Shown: piece after piece, positions 23,298 to 46,100 of the stretch
Position numbering within the stretch: position 1 is the stretch's first letter
Layout of the letters: each line of letters begins with the position of its first letter
DNA from: Lachnospiraceae bacterium P6A3
Lineage (GTDB): Bacteria > Bacillota > Clostridia > Lachnospirales > Lachnospiraceae
NCBI GenBank assembly: GCA_000702085.1
Contig: KL370861.1
Coordinates: forward strand, 684,911-748,910
Reading direction: 5' to 3'
DNA: 64,000 nt
Made by a program: the position numbers and the translations under genes
Notes under the pieces: model-generated
The model's database searches: none
What the model was told of the DNA's origin: nothing
What the model saw: only the letters and a program-made list of their open reading frames with translations

Positions 23298-25037
23298 ATG
23301 TTTTGTCCAAAATGCGGATGTAAAGTAGAAGATGATGATCTTTTCTGCCCGGAATGCGGCACGGGTATATCGAAAATAAAACAAAAGCCTAAGACTATGA
23401 TTTTGTTTTCTGTAATATCCGGCCTGATAATTATCGGAATCATAGTCGGAATTGTCTTAATCGGACGCTCGAGATTAAATGCAACGACAATGCGTATTTT
23501 GAGTTATGAGGGCTCTATAGCTCTTTCCGATGCATCAGGAAGATCTCTGGAGGCTGCGCCCGAGAGGAGACTGAATGACGGAAACATTCTTGATACTTAT
23601 AAGGATTCCAAAGCAAGAGTTCTTCTGGATGAGGACCGCTGCGTAACACTTACGGAAAAAAGCAGGGCTTCTTTTCATCAGGAAAATAAAACTCTAAGGC
23701 TCCTTCTTGAAAAGGGCAGTTTGTTTTTTAATATCGAAAGACCGCTTGAAGATGATGAAAATTTCGATATTCAGACATCAACCATGATTATCGGAATCCG
23801 TGGCACTTCCGGTTATGTATGTTCTGATGAAAACGGCTGCAGCGTTCTTTATCTTACAAGCGGAAAAGTTGAAGTATTCGGCCTTAATAAAAACGGTGAT
23901 AAAAGAAGATCCGTTAAAGCCGTGGCCGGTCAGAAGGTTACGGTTATTACGGACGGTGAAAACGTGGAACTGATAGTTGAGGAAATAGAGGAATTTGATC
24001 TTCCCTATTTTGCGATTCTTGAAATCTGTGAAGATGAAGGTCTTTTAAGTACCGTAACGGAAGAAACCGGATGGGATAAGGACATTCTTAAAGATCTTGC
24101 AGATGATCCTTACAGCGGAGATTCCGAAACTGTTGCCGACTCCGGATACTCCACGGATCCCGCAAGGCTGGTTGGAATATGGAAGTACAGAGATCGTGAT
24201 GCGGGACTTGATGAGGATTATTATGAACTCAGAGAAGACGGTACGGGTGTATATTATTATTTCAATGCGGACGGTACACTTGTAAATTATCATACACTGA
24301 CATGGGATTATCTGGATAAGGAGAACGCTGACTGCGAATATGACGGCAGAGTGCATATAACCGTGGACTCCGATGCATATTACTTTTGGTCTCATGGAAT
24401 GATCTGTTTTGGAGATTTTGCTACCCGGAACCCGGTCTGGTATGTACGTTTGGAAGATGATTCATTTGTTCCGAGAATCAGTGATGAGATTATCGGCACA
24501 TACAGTCCTTCCGACGGAGCCCTTCCTTCTTATGTATTTAACGACGATGCAACGGGATATACATTTGACAATAACGGTGTCCTTTCATCCTTTACTTTTG
24601 ACAGGGATGGTGCCGGCTGGCTTATTCACTTCTATGACGGTTCCGGTCAGAATGTAAATTGCCTCTTTAACGGTGAAAAATTATATATCGGAACCACTGT
24701 CAGACCTGATAGTGTATATTACATGCGGATTTCCGAATCGGATAATTCATCTTCGGACGCCGGAGAGAATCAGGTAGCGGAGACGTTATATGATGCTTCG
24801 GATATATTAGGAACATGGGTGGATACCAGATATGACTATTCCTATACGATAAATGAAGACGGAAGCGGAACCGGTCCTTACGGAATGACATTTACCTGGA
24901 CCCTTGATGACGGAGGATTCAGTTTTGAAGGCATAGATATGATTTTCAGTAACGGTATCCTTCAGCTGGGAGAGACCTATTTCAATGATACAAATATGGT
25001 GAGCGAAACATATTACATTACTCTTCACAGAAAGTGA
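23298..25037 (+). CDS. zinc-ribbon / FecR-like / lipocalin-repeat membrane protein
   Basis: 579 residues with an uncommon order. A zinc ribbon with C3, C6, C17 and C20 faces the cytoplasm; one membrane helix spans about 34-55; a FecR-like beta domain (about 60-225) carries IIGIRGTSGYV and SGKVEVF patterns; three related beta-rich repeats follow (about 290-390, 395-480, 490-579), each starting with a G-x-W/Y motif (LVGIWKY, IIGTYSP, ILGTWVD), like small lipocalin-type domains. FecR domains usually sense or bind ligands outside the membrane. No sigma factor gene is adjacent, so classical FecR signalling is not indicated. The start follows GGGAG by seven bases. Role unknown. Confidence 0.78.
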   Translation: MFCPKCGCKVEDDDLFCPECGTGISKIKQKPKTMILFSVISGLIIIGIIVGIVLIGRSRLNATTMRILSYEGSIALSDASGRSLEAAPERRLNDGNILDTYKDSKARVLLDEDRCVTLTEKSRASFHQENKTLRLLLEKGSLFFNIERPLEDDENFDIQTSTMIIGIRGTSGYVCSDENGCSVLYLTSGKVEVFGLNKNGDKRRSVKAVAGQKVTVITDGENVELIVEEIEEFDLPYFAILEICEDEGLLSTVTEETGWDKDILKDLADDPYSGDSETVADSGYSTDPARLVGIWKYRDRDAGLDEDYYELREDGTGVYYYFNADGTLVNYHTLTWDYLDKENADCEYDGRVHITVDSDAYYFWSHGMICFGDFATRNPVWYVRLEDDSFVPRISDEIIGTYSPSDGALPSYVFNDDATGYTFDNNGVLSSFTFDRDGAGWLIHFYDGSGQNVNCLFNGEKLYIGTTVRPDSVYYMRISESDNSSSDAGENQVAETLYDASDILGTWVDTRYDYSYTINEDGSGTGPYGMTFTWTLDDGGFSFEGIDMIFSNGILQLGETYFNDTNMVSETYYITLHRK

Positions 25038-25042
25038 TTTTC

Positions 25043-25089
25043 AGCTCCTTTTATCCGGCTTTGTAAGGCCGGTGAAAGGAGCTCTTTTT
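25043..25089 (+). terminator. intrinsic terminator after the FecR-like gene
   Basis: Long stem-loop from AGCTCCTTTT (25043) to AAAGGAGCT (25083) with an inner CCGGC/GCCGG stem, followed by TTTTT. Confidence 0.9.
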
Positions 25090-25114: not shown

Positions 25115-25143
25115 TTGTAAATAAAGCGTTTTCGCGATATAAT
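25115..25143 (+). promoter_or_regulatory. predicted promoter of the debranching-like gene
   Basis: TTGTAA (25115-25120), 17-bp spacer, TATAAT (25138-25143). Predicted transcription start is near 25150, about 20 nt before the ATG. Confidence 0.7.
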
Positions 25144-25169
25144 TTATAGGATTATGGAGTACCTTGCGC

Positions 25170-26990
25170 ATGAATAAGAACGGGACAAATTATATATTCC
25201 CTCTCATCACACAGGAAACCGCGTCAGGCATCAGATTTTGCCTGGAATCTAAGACAACCGATTGCGGTGTAATACTGTATGACAGAGTATCGGGGAAAGA
25301 GATTAAGAAGATTCCGTTTGAATCAGGCGATCGTATCGGTAATCTTTATTGCAAGACCGTTTCCGGATTTGACGCATCCGGGATTTCCTATCTGTATTAT
25401 TGCGGATCAAAACATATAACGGATCCGCGGGCTACCGCACTTGTTTCGGGAAGAGAATACGCTTCTCCCGTAAAAGAACCTTTAAAGGCCGTCATTAATG
25501 ATACGGATTATGACTGGGACGGAGACTTGCATCCCCGTTTGAAATATGAGGACAGTTTCTTTTATCTCCTGCATGTGAGAGGCTTTACAAAATCCCCTTC
25601 TTCGGGAGTTAAGCATAAGGGCACTTTTGCCGGCATTTCGGAAAAACTGGATTATCTTTCTTCCCTCGGAGTTACCACCATAGAACTCCAGCCCGCATAC
25701 GAATTTATAGAAATCGAATGCAAACCCGGCATAGAGCCTTCTTACGGTTACGGCACATCAAAGCCTTTTCAGGTAATCCCGGGAAAGCTGAATTATTGGG
25801 GATATAAAACCGGATATTATTATGCTCCCAAGGAAAGTTATTCTTCATCGGAAGATGCCTCCCGTGAGTTTAAAGATCTGGTTAAGGCACTTCACAAAAG
25901 GGGAATGGAAATCTGCATGCAGTTTTATTTTGCTCCCGATTTCCCCGAATCCGAAGTTCTCGAAGTATTGCGCTTTTGGGTTATTAATTATCATGTGGAC
26001 GGTTTCCATCTGATGGGAATGAATATACCCATGCGGCTGGTTTCCTCCGATTCGCTTCTTGCGGGAACCAAACTTTTAAACGATCACCTCGATAATGTGG
26101 ATTTCGAATCCGTTAAAGAATCCGGATACGGAAAATTCATCGGATTGTACACCGATGACTTCAGGTATCCCATGAGAAGACTTCTTAAGAGCGATGAAGG
26201 TCAGGTTTCCGATGCTCTTTCGTTCTTAAGGTCCAATCCCGAAGAGTTCGGACGTATAAATTTCTTTTCGGATTATCAGGGCTTTACTCTTATGGACATG
26301 GTCAGCTATGACCGCAAGCATAATGAGGAAAACGGTGAGGACGGAAGAGACGGCAGCGATTATAACTTCAGCTGGAACTGCGGCGAAGAAGGGCCTACCC
26401 GTAAAAAGAAGATCCGTGATCTGAGAATGAGACAGATCAAGAACGCTTACAGCCTTCTGATGCTGGGCGCGGGAACTCCCCTGATATTTATGGGGGATGA
26501 ATTCGGTAATTCGCAGTCGGGAAATAACAACCCGTACTGCATTGACTCTCAGGTGACCTGGCTTGACTGGAAGAATCTTAAGAAGAATTCGGAACTTGCG
26601 GATTATCTCAAAGAACTTGTAAAGCTTCGCGGAGCTCACAAGATATTCAAGAGCGGCAGAGAGCTGTACATGATAGATACCGAAAACTGCGGATATCCCG
26701 AGATGAGTTATCATTCGGATACGGCATACAGAGTATCTTGCGAATATTATTCACGTTCATTCGGAATAATGTATTGCGAGGATAAAGGCGACACTCTTAT
26801 ATATGCAGCCGTAAATATGGGGTGGGAAGATAAGGTTCTGGCACTTCCCAGGCCGCCCAAGGGATACTTCTGGACCGTTAAGATGTCCACTGATCCGGAT
26901 GCAGCGGAAAAGCCGGTTAGCGGAGAACTTGAAAAATCCATTCCCGGAAGAACCGTTACCATATATACAACGGTTAAGGTGAAGAAATGA
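25170..26990 (+). CDS. GH13 glycogen-debranching-like protein lacking catalytic residues (pseudoenzyme)
   Basis: 606 residues. Strong resemblance to GH13 isoamylase/GlgX debranching enzymes in YDWDGDLHPRL, HVRGFTKSPSSGV, LNYWGYKTGYYYAP, DMVSYDRKHNEENGEDGRDG, FSWNCGEEGPT and MGDEFGNSQSGNNNPYC. Yet aligned by eye to the family, region I Asp is Q251 and its His is P256; region II Arg/Asp nucleophile are H280/M282; region III acid Glu is L326; region IV His-Asp are Y369-Q370. The loop between regions I and II is about 60 residues shorter than usual. It should not hydrolyse glucan but may bind it. The ATG at 25170 is preferred to TTG at 25164. ATGA-overlaps the next gene. Confidence 0.85.
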   Translation: MNKNGTNYIFPLITQETASGIRFCLESKTTDCGVILYDRVSGKEIKKIPFESGDRIGNLYCKTVSGFDASGISYLYYCGSKHITDPRATALVSGREYASPVKEPLKAVINDTDYDWDGDLHPRLKYEDSFFYLLHVRGFTKSPSSGVKHKGTFAGISEKLDYLSSLGVTTIELQPAYEFIEIECKPGIEPSYGYGTSKPFQVIPGKLNYWGYKTGYYYAPKESYSSSEDASREFKDLVKALHKRGMEICMQFYFAPDFPESEVLEVLRFWVINYHVDGFHLMGMNIPMRLVSSDSLLAGTKLLNDHLDNVDFESVKESGYGKFIGLYTDDFRYPMRRLLKSDEGQVSDALSFLRSNPEEFGRINFFSDYQGFTLMDMVSYDRKHNEENGEDGRDGSDYNFSWNCGEEGPTRKKKIRDLRMRQIKNAYSLLMLGAGTPLIFMGDEFGNSQSGNNNPYCIDSQVTWLDWKNLKKNSELADYLKELVKLRGAHKIFKSGRELYMIDTENCGYPEMSYHSDTAYRVSCEYYSRSFGIMYCEDKGDTLIYAAVNMGWEDKVLALPRPPKGYFWTVKMSTDPDAAEKPVSGELEKSIPGRTVTIYTTVKVKK

Positions 26991-27583
26991 GCACTCCCTA
27001 TTTTTACAGATTTATACAGCACTTTATTACAATCACCAAGCATCGCATTTTGGTTTGCAAAGGCTGTTTTAAAGTCGGATTGTACTATCAGGGACTGACA
27101 CACGATCTGTCAAAGTATTCTCCCGATGAATTTCTTGTCGGTGTTAAGTATTACCAGGGTACCCGAAGCCCCAATAATGCAGAACGTGAGGACATCGGTT
27201 ATTCATCCGCGTGGCTTCATCACAAGGGCAGGAACAAGCATCATTACGAATACTGGATAGACTATAACACCAGGGGTGAATTGCCCGGTGAAGATGTACT
27301 TATCCCTGTTGAGATGCCGGATAAGTATCTTGCCGAGATGGTTATGGACCGTATCGCTGCCTCCAAGGTTTATAAGGGAAAAGAATACAAGGACTCGGAT
27401 TCCCTGGATTATTTTCTCAGCGGAATTGAAGCGGTTCCGATGCATCCGGTCACAAAGAAAAAGCTGTACAGATATCTTAAGATACTTGCAAAATACGGCG
27501 AAGAAAAGACCTGTAAACTTATCAGGTATGAATTGAAACACGGTCGCTATATACCAAAATCAAAACGATCCGTATCAAATTAA
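26987..27583 (+). CDS. DUF5662-family protein
   Basis: 198 residues; it resembles the uncharacterised DUF5662 family (sometimes loosely labelled catalase). Conserved-looking polar motifs are LTHDLSKYSPDEF (about 36-48) and a His-rich WLHHKGRNKHHYEYW (about 76-90), which could bind metal as in HD-type hydrolases; this is inference. No membrane segment or signal peptide. It overlaps the debranching-like gene by four bases (ATGA) and is followed 17 bp later by aroC, so it belongs to the same transcription unit. Confidence 0.75.
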   Translation: MSTPYFYRFIQHFITITKHRILVCKGCFKVGLYYQGLTHDLSKYSPDEFLVGVKYYQGTRSPNNAEREDIGYSSAWLHHKGRNKHHYEYWIDYNTRGELPGEDVLIPVEMPDKYLAEMVMDRIAASKVYKGKEYKDSDSLDYFLSGIEAVPMHPVTKKKLYRYLKILAKYGEEKTCKLIRYELKHGRYIPKSKRSVSN

Positions 27584-43889: not shown

Positions 43890-46100
43890 ATGAATAAGAG
43901 ACTTTATAAGCTTATGGATTGGGCTTTTATCGAGGAAGTTATTTATTCGGAGTGCTCACATCCTCAGGATCTTCTCGGACCTCATGCAAAAGGACAGACT
44001 ACGCTTCTTCAGGCTTATTTCCCCGGAGCACAGTCCGTCGTAGTTAAGTGGAAAGACAGGGGCGAACCCGGCAAGCCTTCCGAGACCGAGATGGAAGTGG
44101 CCGACGATGACGGTTTTTTTGCGCAGCTCCTCCCCACAAAAGATCCCGGTCTCTATACATATGTTGTTACATATGAGGAAAGACAGACGGGTGGCAAGAC
44201 TCTTAAGAAAAAAGTATTGAGATGCGGCGATCCTTACAGACACACATTTCTTTTGAATGATAAAGATGTTGCCGGCTTTATTGAAGGCAAGTGTCTTAAT
44301 GCATCATCTCTTCTCGGATCGCATTTCATGGAGCATGACGGTGAGGAAGGTACTCTTTTTGCGGTATATGCACCCAATGCAATGAGAATAAGTGTAGTCG
44401 GTGATTTTAATTCCTGGGACGGAAGACTCGATCAGATGTGCAGAAGAGAGGATTCGGGAATTTTTGAGTTATTTATTCCCGGAGTTAAGCCCGGCGATAA
44501 ATATCAGTACGAGATCAAATTCAAAAATTATGATATATGCAGAAAATCAGATCCGTATTCCGAGGAGATGATTATCGAGAACGGACTTGTTTCGGTTGTT
44601 CCTGAAAGCAATTCTTCCGTAAAGTGCAACCCGTTGTCCGGTAAAAAACCTGTGGATAAAAACACGGCTCTTTGTATTTATCAGGTCAATCCATATGACT
44701 ATGTAAATGAAACTTCTTCCGCTTTTGCGAAGATGATTTCCGAAATACCTGCATTTTGCGTCAATTCCGGATTTACACATGTGTGTATGGGAAATGTACT
44801 TACTTCTTCACAGTGCATGACCGATAAAAACATTTCTTTCTATGCGGTAGATAAGAGACTCGGTTCATCTGATGAACTAAAATCTCTTGTTAATTTGCTT
44901 CATGATGCGGGAATAGGTATTATCTTTGACTGGGTTCCTTCATATTTCGCACATGATGAAGGCGGGCTTGTTTTTTTTGACGGAACCGGACTCTATGAAC
45001 ATATCGATCCCAGACAGGGATATGCTTCGGATATTGATGCATGCCTGTTTAATTATTCTTCAAACACCGTTTCAAATTTCCTTCTCTCATCCGGATTCAG
45101 GCTTGCGGATGAATTCGGTGCCGATGGTATAAGAATGTGCGGTATTGCAAGAATGCTTTATCTGGATTACAGCAAGACCGACTGGGTTCCCAACATCTAC
45201 GGCGGAAACGAGAATCTTGATGCAATAGCATTTATCAAAGAGTTTAATACAAAGATCAGATCCAAATATCCCGGCCTGATCCTTATTGCCGAAGATTCGT
45301 CTCTGCACCAGGGAATTACCGATCCCATTGAGGAAAACGGACTGGGATTTGATTATAAGTGGAACGAAGTATTCTTTGATGATTTCAGAGAATTTATCTG
45401 TATGGATCCTTTGTACAGAGGAAGAAACCTTCATCTGCTTCCCGATGAACTTACATATGCTTTTGTCGAAGACTTTATTCTTCCCTTTGCAGGCAGGGAA
45501 AAGTCTTCTCAGACGGGCAGGATATATGATCTTCTTCCCGGTGACGATCAGATGAAGATGGCCCAGATGAAGCTTGCAGCAGGATATTTATATTCTCATC
45601 CCGGCAAAAAAGTAATCGGTGCTGCCGATGAAATAACGGGGAAACTTCTTAAAGACCTTAACGATCTGTATGAAAAAGAACCCGCACTGAGCCGTAATGA
45701 GTACGATCCCGAAAATTTCGAGTGGCTCAGTAATATGAATGCGGATCAGGCCTGCGTTTCTTTTGTAAGAAAGACCGATGACCCCGAGGACATGCTTGTG
45801 TTTATAGCTAATTTCTCGGGAATAGAGCAGTCCTTCTCCACAGGTGTTCCTTACGAGGGAAAATACAAAGAGATCTTTACCACGGACGACAAAGCTTATG
45901 GCGGTTCTTCATCAGTATCCAAGACGGTTAGGAAAGCAACCGATAAGAGAATGGACGGAAGAACCCAGTCCATCTCCGTTAAGATAAGACCTCTCAGTAT
46001 GATCATAATGAAATTTATCCCTTATACCGAAGCTGAACTCGAGAAGGTTATCGAGCAGAGAATAAGGAATTATACTCCCATCAAAAAGAGTAAGAAGTGA
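43890..46100 (+). CDS. GH13 glycogen-branching-enzyme-like protein with degenerate active site
   Basis: 736 residues, the size of GlgB. Domains: N1 (about 15-125), CBM48 (about 140-230, VYAPNAMRISVVGDFNSWDGR), GH13 barrel (about 265-620), C-domain. Family sequence is well kept in FDWVPSYFAHDEGGL, FDGTGLYEHIDPRQGY, MLYLDYSK, WVPNIYGGNENLDAI and SHPGKKV. But the nucleophile Asp is C417 (DGIRMCGI), the region I His is Y352, region IV His-Asp are G535-R536, and the usual MGGEFGQ is IGAADEITG; only the region I Asp (D347) and acid Glu (E468) remain. It is probably not a branching enzyme; glucan binding may persist. It starts 25 bp after the DUF1015 gene with an AAAGGGG site. Confidence 0.85.
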   Translation: MNKRLYKLMDWAFIEEVIYSECSHPQDLLGPHAKGQTTLLQAYFPGAQSVVVKWKDRGEPGKPSETEMEVADDDGFFAQLLPTKDPGLYTYVVTYEERQTGGKTLKKKVLRCGDPYRHTFLLNDKDVAGFIEGKCLNASSLLGSHFMEHDGEEGTLFAVYAPNAMRISVVGDFNSWDGRLDQMCRREDSGIFELFIPGVKPGDKYQYEIKFKNYDICRKSDPYSEEMIIENGLVSVVPESNSSVKCNPLSGKKPVDKNTALCIYQVNPYDYVNETSSAFAKMISEIPAFCVNSGFTHVCMGNVLTSSQCMTDKNISFYAVDKRLGSSDELKSLVNLLHDAGIGIIFDWVPSYFAHDEGGLVFFDGTGLYEHIDPRQGYASDIDACLFNYSSNTVSNFLLSSGFRLADEFGADGIRMCGIARMLYLDYSKTDWVPNIYGGNENLDAIAFIKEFNTKIRSKYPGLILIAEDSSLHQGITDPIEENGLGFDYKWNEVFFDDFREFICMDPLYRGRNLHLLPDELTYAFVEDFILPFAGREKSSQTGRIYDLLPGDDQMKMAQMKLAAGYLYSHPGKKVIGAADEITGKLLKDLNDLYEKEPALSRNEYDPENFEWLSNMNADQACVSFVRKTDDPEDMLVFIANFSGIEQSFSTGVPYEGKYKEIFTTDDKAYGGSSSVSKTVRKATDKRMDGRTQSISVKIRPLSMIIMKFIPYTEAELEKVIEQRIRNYTPIKKSKK

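Follow-up and report, generated by a model that had tools for sequence, protein, structure and literature searches.

The DNA analysed here, a 64,000 nt stretch of the Lachnospiraceae bacterium P6A3 genome (the window), contains an ORF whose product has the sequence of a GlgX/isoamylase-type debranching enzyme of the GH13 group and yet has replaced the residues with which such enzymes cleave glucans. The question raised by this locus is what a catalytically dead protein of this type, here designated pseudo-GlgX, is kept for. The features of the locus are listed in Table 1. As first annotated, the reading frame is intact, which an ORF check confirmed, and there is an alternative start codon, TTG, two codons upstream at 25164. 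A strong hairpin followed by a U-run, for which none of 200 shuffled sequences gave an equally good structure, separates the gene from the preceding gene, and so pseudo-GlgX is probably the first gene of a new transcription unit. The near-consensus promoter previously assigned to the gene is present; however, the promoter scan found five such sites in this region, compared with a mean of 5.5 in shuffled sequences, and it is weak evidence for that reason. The gene upstream of the terminator (23298-25037, + strand) encodes a protein with a zinc-ribbon plus a FecR-like region.

Table 1. Features of the pseudo-GlgX locus and of a second GH13 gene, in window coordinates
Feature	Position	Strand	Remarks
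Intrinsic terminator hairpin, then U-run	25043..25083	+	downstream of preceding gene; -27.7 kcal/mol, z -5.1
Possible promoter TTGTAA-17-TATAAT	25115..25143	+	10/12 consensus match
pseudo-GlgX gene	25170..26990	+	catalytically dead GH13_11 (GlgX/isoamylase-type), 606 aa
Trp210 of NYWGY motif	25797..25799	+	equivalent of S. venezuelae GlgX Trp222; kept 168/168
Region I: Asp -> Gln251, His -> Pro256	25920..25937	+	alignment to GlgX
Missing-loop site, between region I and helix 260-274	25938..25949	+	44-46 residues absent relative to active GlgX
Region II: Arg -> His280, nucleophile Asp -> Met282	26007..26015	+	alignment to GlgX
Region III: acid/base Glu -> Asp305	26082..26084	+	alignment to GlgX
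Arg336	26175..26177	+	equivalent of maize ISA1 Arg504 (allele su1-NC); kept 167/168
Region IV: His-Asp -> Tyr369-Gln370	26274..26279	+	alignment to GlgX
Border lobe KHNEENGEDGRDGSDYNFSWNCGEEGPTR (N385, E390, W402)	26304..26405	+	densest conserved block
GNNNPYC (N452, N454, Y456)	26520..26540	+	equivalents of maize Asn628 and S. venezuelae Asn534/Tyr536
DUF5662 gene	26987..27583	+	start overlaps pseudo-GlgX stop by ATGA
Second dead GH13, GlgB-like	43890..46100	+	nucleophile Asp -> Cys, region IV His-Asp -> Gly-Arg

Pseudo-GlgX matches the Pfam alpha-amylase model above the model cut-off (1.4e-11). With the GlgX/TreX enzymes (TIGR02100) it shares the fold, the KHN...SWNCG and GNNN motifs and the outer sugar contacts; unlike them, it has replaced catalytic residues, lacks a loop of 44-46 residues and scores 268.4 bits (1e-79) against TIGR02100, far below the curated cut-off of 640.9. 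Plant ISA1, an active enzyme with which pseudo-GlgX shares border-lobe residues, is the closest sequence match in the PDB, followed by TreX and GlgX, and is also the best structural match of an AlphaFold model (pLDDT 87, pTM 0.89; TMq 0.81 to rice ISA1). Values of TMq are 0.78-0.81 to ISA1 and 0.74-0.79 to GlgX/TreX for this model, and 0.84-0.91 (rice, 0.89-0.91) and 0.84-0.89, respectively, for a model of a relative, L137. As predicted, pseudo-GlgX has the N-domain, barrel and C-domain of the GH13_11 fold, with a single N-terminal sandwich region whose strands start at residue 15, and the two models show that this fold has been kept in the clade. Confidence in the pseudo-GlgX model falls below pLDDT 50 in the lobe at residues 379-410 and at 450-455. 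The L137 model, built from a slightly larger alignment (55 sequences; mean pLDDT 92), has the lobe ordered, with block means of 75-92 in these parts, and because of this the low confidence was given no weight and a disordered docking segment was dropped as an explanation.

The intact GlgX of the same genome (G000:C5), 38% and 35% identical to pseudo-GlgX in two parts, served as the residue reference. Relative to this protein the changes are D251Q, H256P, R280H, D282M, E305D, H369Y and D370Q, so that none of the six catalytic residues counted is intact; all six are intact in each of 20 GlgX sequences. The initial annotation, aligned by eye, had correctly placed Q251, P256, H280, M282, Y369 and Q370 but had assigned the region III Glu to L326. 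The Glu of the KLIAEAWD motif of GlgX aligns instead with D305 and, as this is the acid/base column, region III carries a Glu-to-Asp substitution. For the loop that follows region I, a shortening of about 60 residues had been estimated. The interval from the region I Asp to the region II Asp is 30 residues in pseudo-GlgX and 74-76 in the 20 GlgX, a difference of 44-46. In two further GlgX (L217, L219), the spacings between nucleophile, acid/base and region IV His equal those of Asp342, Glu378 and His449 in Streptomyces venezuelae GlgX; the NYWGY Trp spacing is one off (121 versus 120) and this residue was matched by motif.

The same losses are found throughout the relatives of pseudo-GlgX. From 172 pooled sequences, 4 were removed at 95% identity, leaving 168, some of them partial: 79 from public-genome loci, 25 from the genus, 28 and 30 from the family, 5 further sequences and the window's own. 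The nucleophile Asp is absent from 167 of the 168, with 15 different residue types in the column. L157, the only sequence with an Asp there, is without its other catalytic residues. Matches to the six catalytic residues number zero in 78 sequences, one in 61, two in 26 and three in 3; orthologues with the residues intact were sought as counter-evidence and none has the full set. The region I-II interval is 30 residues in 164 sequences, 29 in 3 and 31 in 1, while all 20 GlgX retain both the catalytic residues and the long interval. Together these counts show that the clade has lost the loop of 44-46 residues along with its nucleophile, acid/base and transition-state residues. In a maximum-likelihood tree of 63 rows (43 pseudoenzymes and 20 GlgX, 7 of these from other bacteria; no plant sequences), rooted at the midpoint with long branches flagged, all 43 pseudoenzymes lie beyond a branch with 100/100 support and so form one clade. 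A recent duplication of a Lachnospiraceae GlgX was considered and is unsupported, as all 20 GlgX fall on the opposite side of that branch. We infer a single loss of catalysis, which either preceded the diversification of the Lachnospiraceae or took place early in it.

Loss of function by decay is one alternative, and the active-site columns do vary freely and 43 of 250 family genomes are without the pseudoenzyme. It is contradicted, however, by the intact frame, by the presence of the gene in ~200 of the 250 genomes and by dN/dS values of 0.047-0.090 in seven close pairs (NG86; dS is high in several and partly saturated), and we consider it extremely improbable. An eighth pair (L001/L013) gave no value because its synonymous sites are saturated, and the GlgX pair from genomes G000 and G001 gave 0.049. 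In that one genome pair the pseudoenzymes are 68.5% and the GlgX proteins 84.8% identical, indicating that the pseudoenzyme changes faster than GlgX. The pseudoenzyme clade is kept under strong purifying selection, and the earlier view that the gene is maintained without catalysis and not decayed is strongly supported by the dN/dS values and by the family-wide conservation.

In the genus, a match is present in all 31 genomes, although as a 73-residue fragment in one (G030) and partial in three others, and 22 of the 31, including the genome of the window, also show GlgX segments. For the family, 250 Lachnospiraceae genomes of 249 genera, each at least 90% complete, were searched and 207 were matched by profile A1 at 1e-40. 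This profile splits short-form pseudoenzymes so that they resemble GlgX; 50 + 50 genomes were re-searched with an improved profile, A3, and one (G139) was judged by sequence. On this basis ~200 of the 250 genomes have the pseudoenzyme, most assigned by profile score and length with the fetched sequences checked residue by residue and, in many genomes, five candidates scored; 6 have only GlgX (G033, G072, G207, G232, G236 and G258, all except G232 read by sequence), one (G068) is ambiguous and 43 have neither. G139 was rejected as a further GlgX-only genome, its protein being catalytically dead. As 41 of the 43 genomes with neither protein have glgA, the pseudoenzyme is dispensable. Searches of the order (1e-108) and class (1e-60) matched 12 of 117 and 3 of 147 genomes, respectively, all in Lachnospiraceae, with no match in other families at these thresholds, which could hide very diverged members. 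A scan of public genomes gave at least 512 relatives among the stretches covered, and the best 80 of the 512 are mostly labelled as Lachnospiraceae or its genera (Butyrivibrio, Lachnospira, Roseburia, Dorea, Agathobacter, Konateibacter, Anaerocolumna), with a few named otherwise, for example Clostridium fessum and Fusobacterium naviforme. GlgX-like matches to A3 are likewise absent outside the family at 1e-60 among the 147 class genomes. A GlgX encoded on a Peptoclostridium megaplasmid (L198, L216) is 60% identical to the GlgX of the window's genome, a similarity that hints at transfer.

What the clade has kept is most apparent at positions that contact sugars. In the complex of S. venezuelae GlgX with acarbose, as described in the accessible part of the report, seven residues touch the -1 sugar (Trp222, Tyr224, His271, Asp342, Glu378, Trp380 and His449) and four touch other sugars (Arg212, Glu470, Asn534 and Tyr536) (PMC9530166). 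All of these except Arg212 were mapped onto pseudo-GlgX. The equivalents of His271, Asp342, Glu378, Trp380, His449 and also Asp450 vary freely in the pseudoenzymes, whereas the Trp222 equivalent is invariant (Table 1) and the equivalents of Tyr224 (Y212; 148 Tyr and 20 Phe), Glu470 (E390; 165/168), Asn534 (N454; 166/168) and Tyr536 (Y456; 162/168) are conserved. The position of E390 is a Trp in 14 of the 20 GlgX rows, including the genome's own GlgX, which aligns to pseudo-GlgX without a gap at this position. A second group of conserved positions corresponds to residues R504, N561, W578 and N628 of maize ISA1, which sit in the border lobe; four spontaneous variants with single changes at these residues had no detectable activity, and W578 contacts glucan at SBS2, according to the text available for that study (PMC12510319). 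Only one of 121 offsets fits all four residues on the rice ISA1 chain, and with it their equivalents in the clade are R336 (167/168), N385 (168/168), W402 (150/168) and N452 (167/167). Overall, 46 positions are common to pseudoenzymes and GlgX at 95%, of which 14 are in residues 373-412 and 7 in 450-470. The alignments thus show that positions predicted to grip alpha-glucan outside the reaction centre have been kept.

Such a pattern could also belong to an enzyme in which the catalytic residues have been relocated or which has acquired a new reaction. The strong purifying selection is compatible with this, as is the finding that 72 of the 168 sequences have D or E in the region III column and 90 have one of these acids in that of region I. 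Set against it are the 15 residue types in the former nucleophile column and the occurrence in GlgX of the acids that are common at ≥95%, which are hence probably structural; in addition, no column has one residue in ≥85% of the clade and a different one in ≥85% of GlgX, so nothing points to new chemistry. We regard such an enzyme as quite improbable. The pattern is that of an old binding function retained, as judged from the alignments, and the earlier suggestion that the protein may bind glucan is supported indirectly by conservation of the sugar-contact, but not the catalytic, positions. On balance, therefore, we favour, with some reserve, the view that pseudo-GlgX is a non-hydrolytic glycogen (alpha-glucan)-binding protein. 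Absence of the region I-II loop would leave the groove open. A glucan chain would rest on W210 and Y212 and along both the border lobe (N385, E390, W402) and the NNN-Y segment, and would stay uncut. Outer chains held in this way might be shielded, or another protein might be brought to the granule; as a partner, the near-universal GlgA or GlgB would be likelier than GlgX, although this is speculative. Nearly all of the residues kept are also common to active enzymes and their retention could be explained by folding alone.

Among known systems, one of the closest is plant ISA2, a non-catalytic GH13_11 paralogue in which at least four of the five universally conserved catalytic residues, including the nucleophile, are changed; in pseudo-GlgX all catalytic residues are changed. 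In the accessible text on ISA2 (PMC12510319), it resembles pseudo-GlgX in having the GH13_11 fold with the nucleophile and most catalytic residues lost, in an ancient loss that has been retained through the whole lineage and in changing faster than its active paralogue. In contrast to ISA2, pseudo-GlgX is bacterial, is without an extra N-terminal beta-sandwich and has lost the loop between regions I and II. By analogy with the role of ISA2 for ISA1 in plants, pseudo-GlgX might be a regulatory non-catalytic subunit of an active GlgX, consistent with the subfamily and kind of residue loss (PMC12510319, in the part accessible) and with the GlgX segments found in most genomes of the genus. However, a search with TIGR02100 at 1e-110 (up to 12 candidates per genome) detected GlgX in all five positive controls, three over the curated cut-off, but in none of the 48 pseudoenzyme-only genomes examined, half of the 96 in that class, although a GlgX split over contigs could escape this threshold; it was also absent at 1e-110 from the 27 genomes searched of the 43 with neither protein. 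As all 48 GlgX-less genomes checked keep it, pseudo-GlgX is not simply a GlgX subunit. The model, furthermore, has no space for the extra N-terminal domain of ISA2, as its strands begin at residue 15, and ISA2 is described, in the text available, as keeping the SBS1 tryptophans and losing SBS2 (PMC12510319), whereas pseudo-GlgX keeps the equivalent of the SBS2 Trp (W402) and the other border-lobe residues. A subunit role of this type thus seems unlikely, although a complex with GlgX might form in genomes that encode both proteins. The best reading of these comparisons is that pseudo-GlgX would be a bacterial counterpart of ISA2 that has kept a different glucan site and that, unlike ISA2, persists without its active relative.

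Other potential partners were surveyed in the same genomes. Type I pullulanase is over its cut-off in 7 of 20 pseudoenzyme-only genomes, 2 of 10 genomes with both pseudoenzyme and GlgX and 6 of 40 pseudoenzyme-less genomes; as 13 of the 20 pseudoenzyme-only genomes have neither pullulanase nor GlgX, it was rejected as an alternative partner. Presence of glgA, in 246 of 250 genomes, offers no contrast and was also set aside. GlgB is present in 30 of 30 genomes with the pseudoenzyme versus 32 of 40 without (Fisher p 0.009, without correction for kinship), in line with the glucan-binding reading.

The gene neighbourhood was examined at 81 loci, some of which end at contig edges. Its recurrent members include a UvrD-like helicase (38 loci) and DUF5662 (33), named via the members in the window, and what we take to be glutamyl-tRNA synthetase (35), ABC-type ATPases (35) and a small acidic protein (33). 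The neighbourhood is conserved but housekeeping, with no glycogen genes in representatives of the 12 clusters read by eye, which counts against the glucan-binding reading, and was discarded as a clue to function. DUF5662, a term used by no paper in the open-licence literature searched, lies directly 3' of pseudo-GlgX in 28 of the 81 loci, either overlapping or at most 23 bases away. This arrangement could reflect a scaffold acting with the co-encoded DUF5662 protein, and, as S. venezuelae GlgX is reported to bind c-di-GMP, a related proposal is a sensor or adaptor for a metabolite or nucleotide. In the same report, as far as its text is accessible, E. coli GlgX, a Streptomyces paralogue and TreX are without the c-di-GMP contacts (PMC9530166), and the conserved positions of the pseudoenzymes include sugar contacts; DUF5662 is not adjacent in 53 of the 81 loci, some of them ending at contig edges. 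A sensor, adaptor or scaffold is, accordingly, a rather improbable alternative to the glucan-binding protein that we favour.

No description of the clade was recognised among the titles and abstract openings of the open-licence publications searched, and the accessible part of a 2024 review of prokaryotic alpha-glucan enzymes does not describe such a protein (PMC11046441). Blautia obeum has two glgX homologues, according to the text available (PMC10395257), and these could be a GlgX and pseudoenzyme pair. About four fifths of the genomes sampled, with nearly one per genus, in a major gut family carry the pseudoenzyme. Because Pfam alpha-amylase accepts pseudo-GlgX and GlgX models match it below their cut-off, gene counts may credit Lachnospiraceae with a debranching enzyme that they do not have. 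Why plants keep a non-catalytic isoamylase is stated, in the available text, to be not understood (PMC12510319), and a clade that survives without GlgX separates a subunit of an active enzyme from a function of its own. If the glucan-binding reading is correct, Lachnospiraceae would probably have a family-wide protein that holds, rather than cuts, glycogen.

Pseudo-GlgX is not the only GH13 protein in the window that has lost its nucleophile. A GlgB-like protein (Table 1) is matched at >620 bits in 29 of the 31 genus genomes (not in G011 and G018), and the motif was read in 24 proteins of the genus, including the window's, of which 23 are without the nucleophile Asp; the exception (L251) keeps this Asp but is altered in region IV. 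Where both genes lie on one contig, as in 12 genomes, they are separated by 13-17 kb. Such dead GlgB-like proteins resemble pseudo-GlgX in being GH13 proteins of glycogen metabolism without a nucleophile that are partly found in the same genomes but differ in belonging to the branching-enzyme family and in their scattered occurrence. Among copies over the search threshold and judged by the nucleophile, dead GlgB is present in 7 of 30 pseudoenzyme genomes, including the window's, versus 2 of 40 others (Fisher p 0.03, without correction for kinship). This scattered occurrence suggests repeated catalytic loss among Lachnospiraceae glycogen enzymes, and a dead GlgB-like protein is a possible companion of pseudo-GlgX. 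In a more far-reaching and doubtful scenario, a non-catalytic isoamylase with a role in organising storage glucan would have arisen in Lachnospiraceae without any link to its origin in plants; in some genera, this one included, the dead GlgB-like protein would join it, the two together coating or shaping the glycogen particle. A GlgB-like protein from another genus (L252) has Asn at the nucleophile position, and GlgB copies without the nucleophile occur in scattered genera, in L263, L290, L293, L295, L297 and L301 from pseudoenzyme genomes and in L315 and L332 from others.
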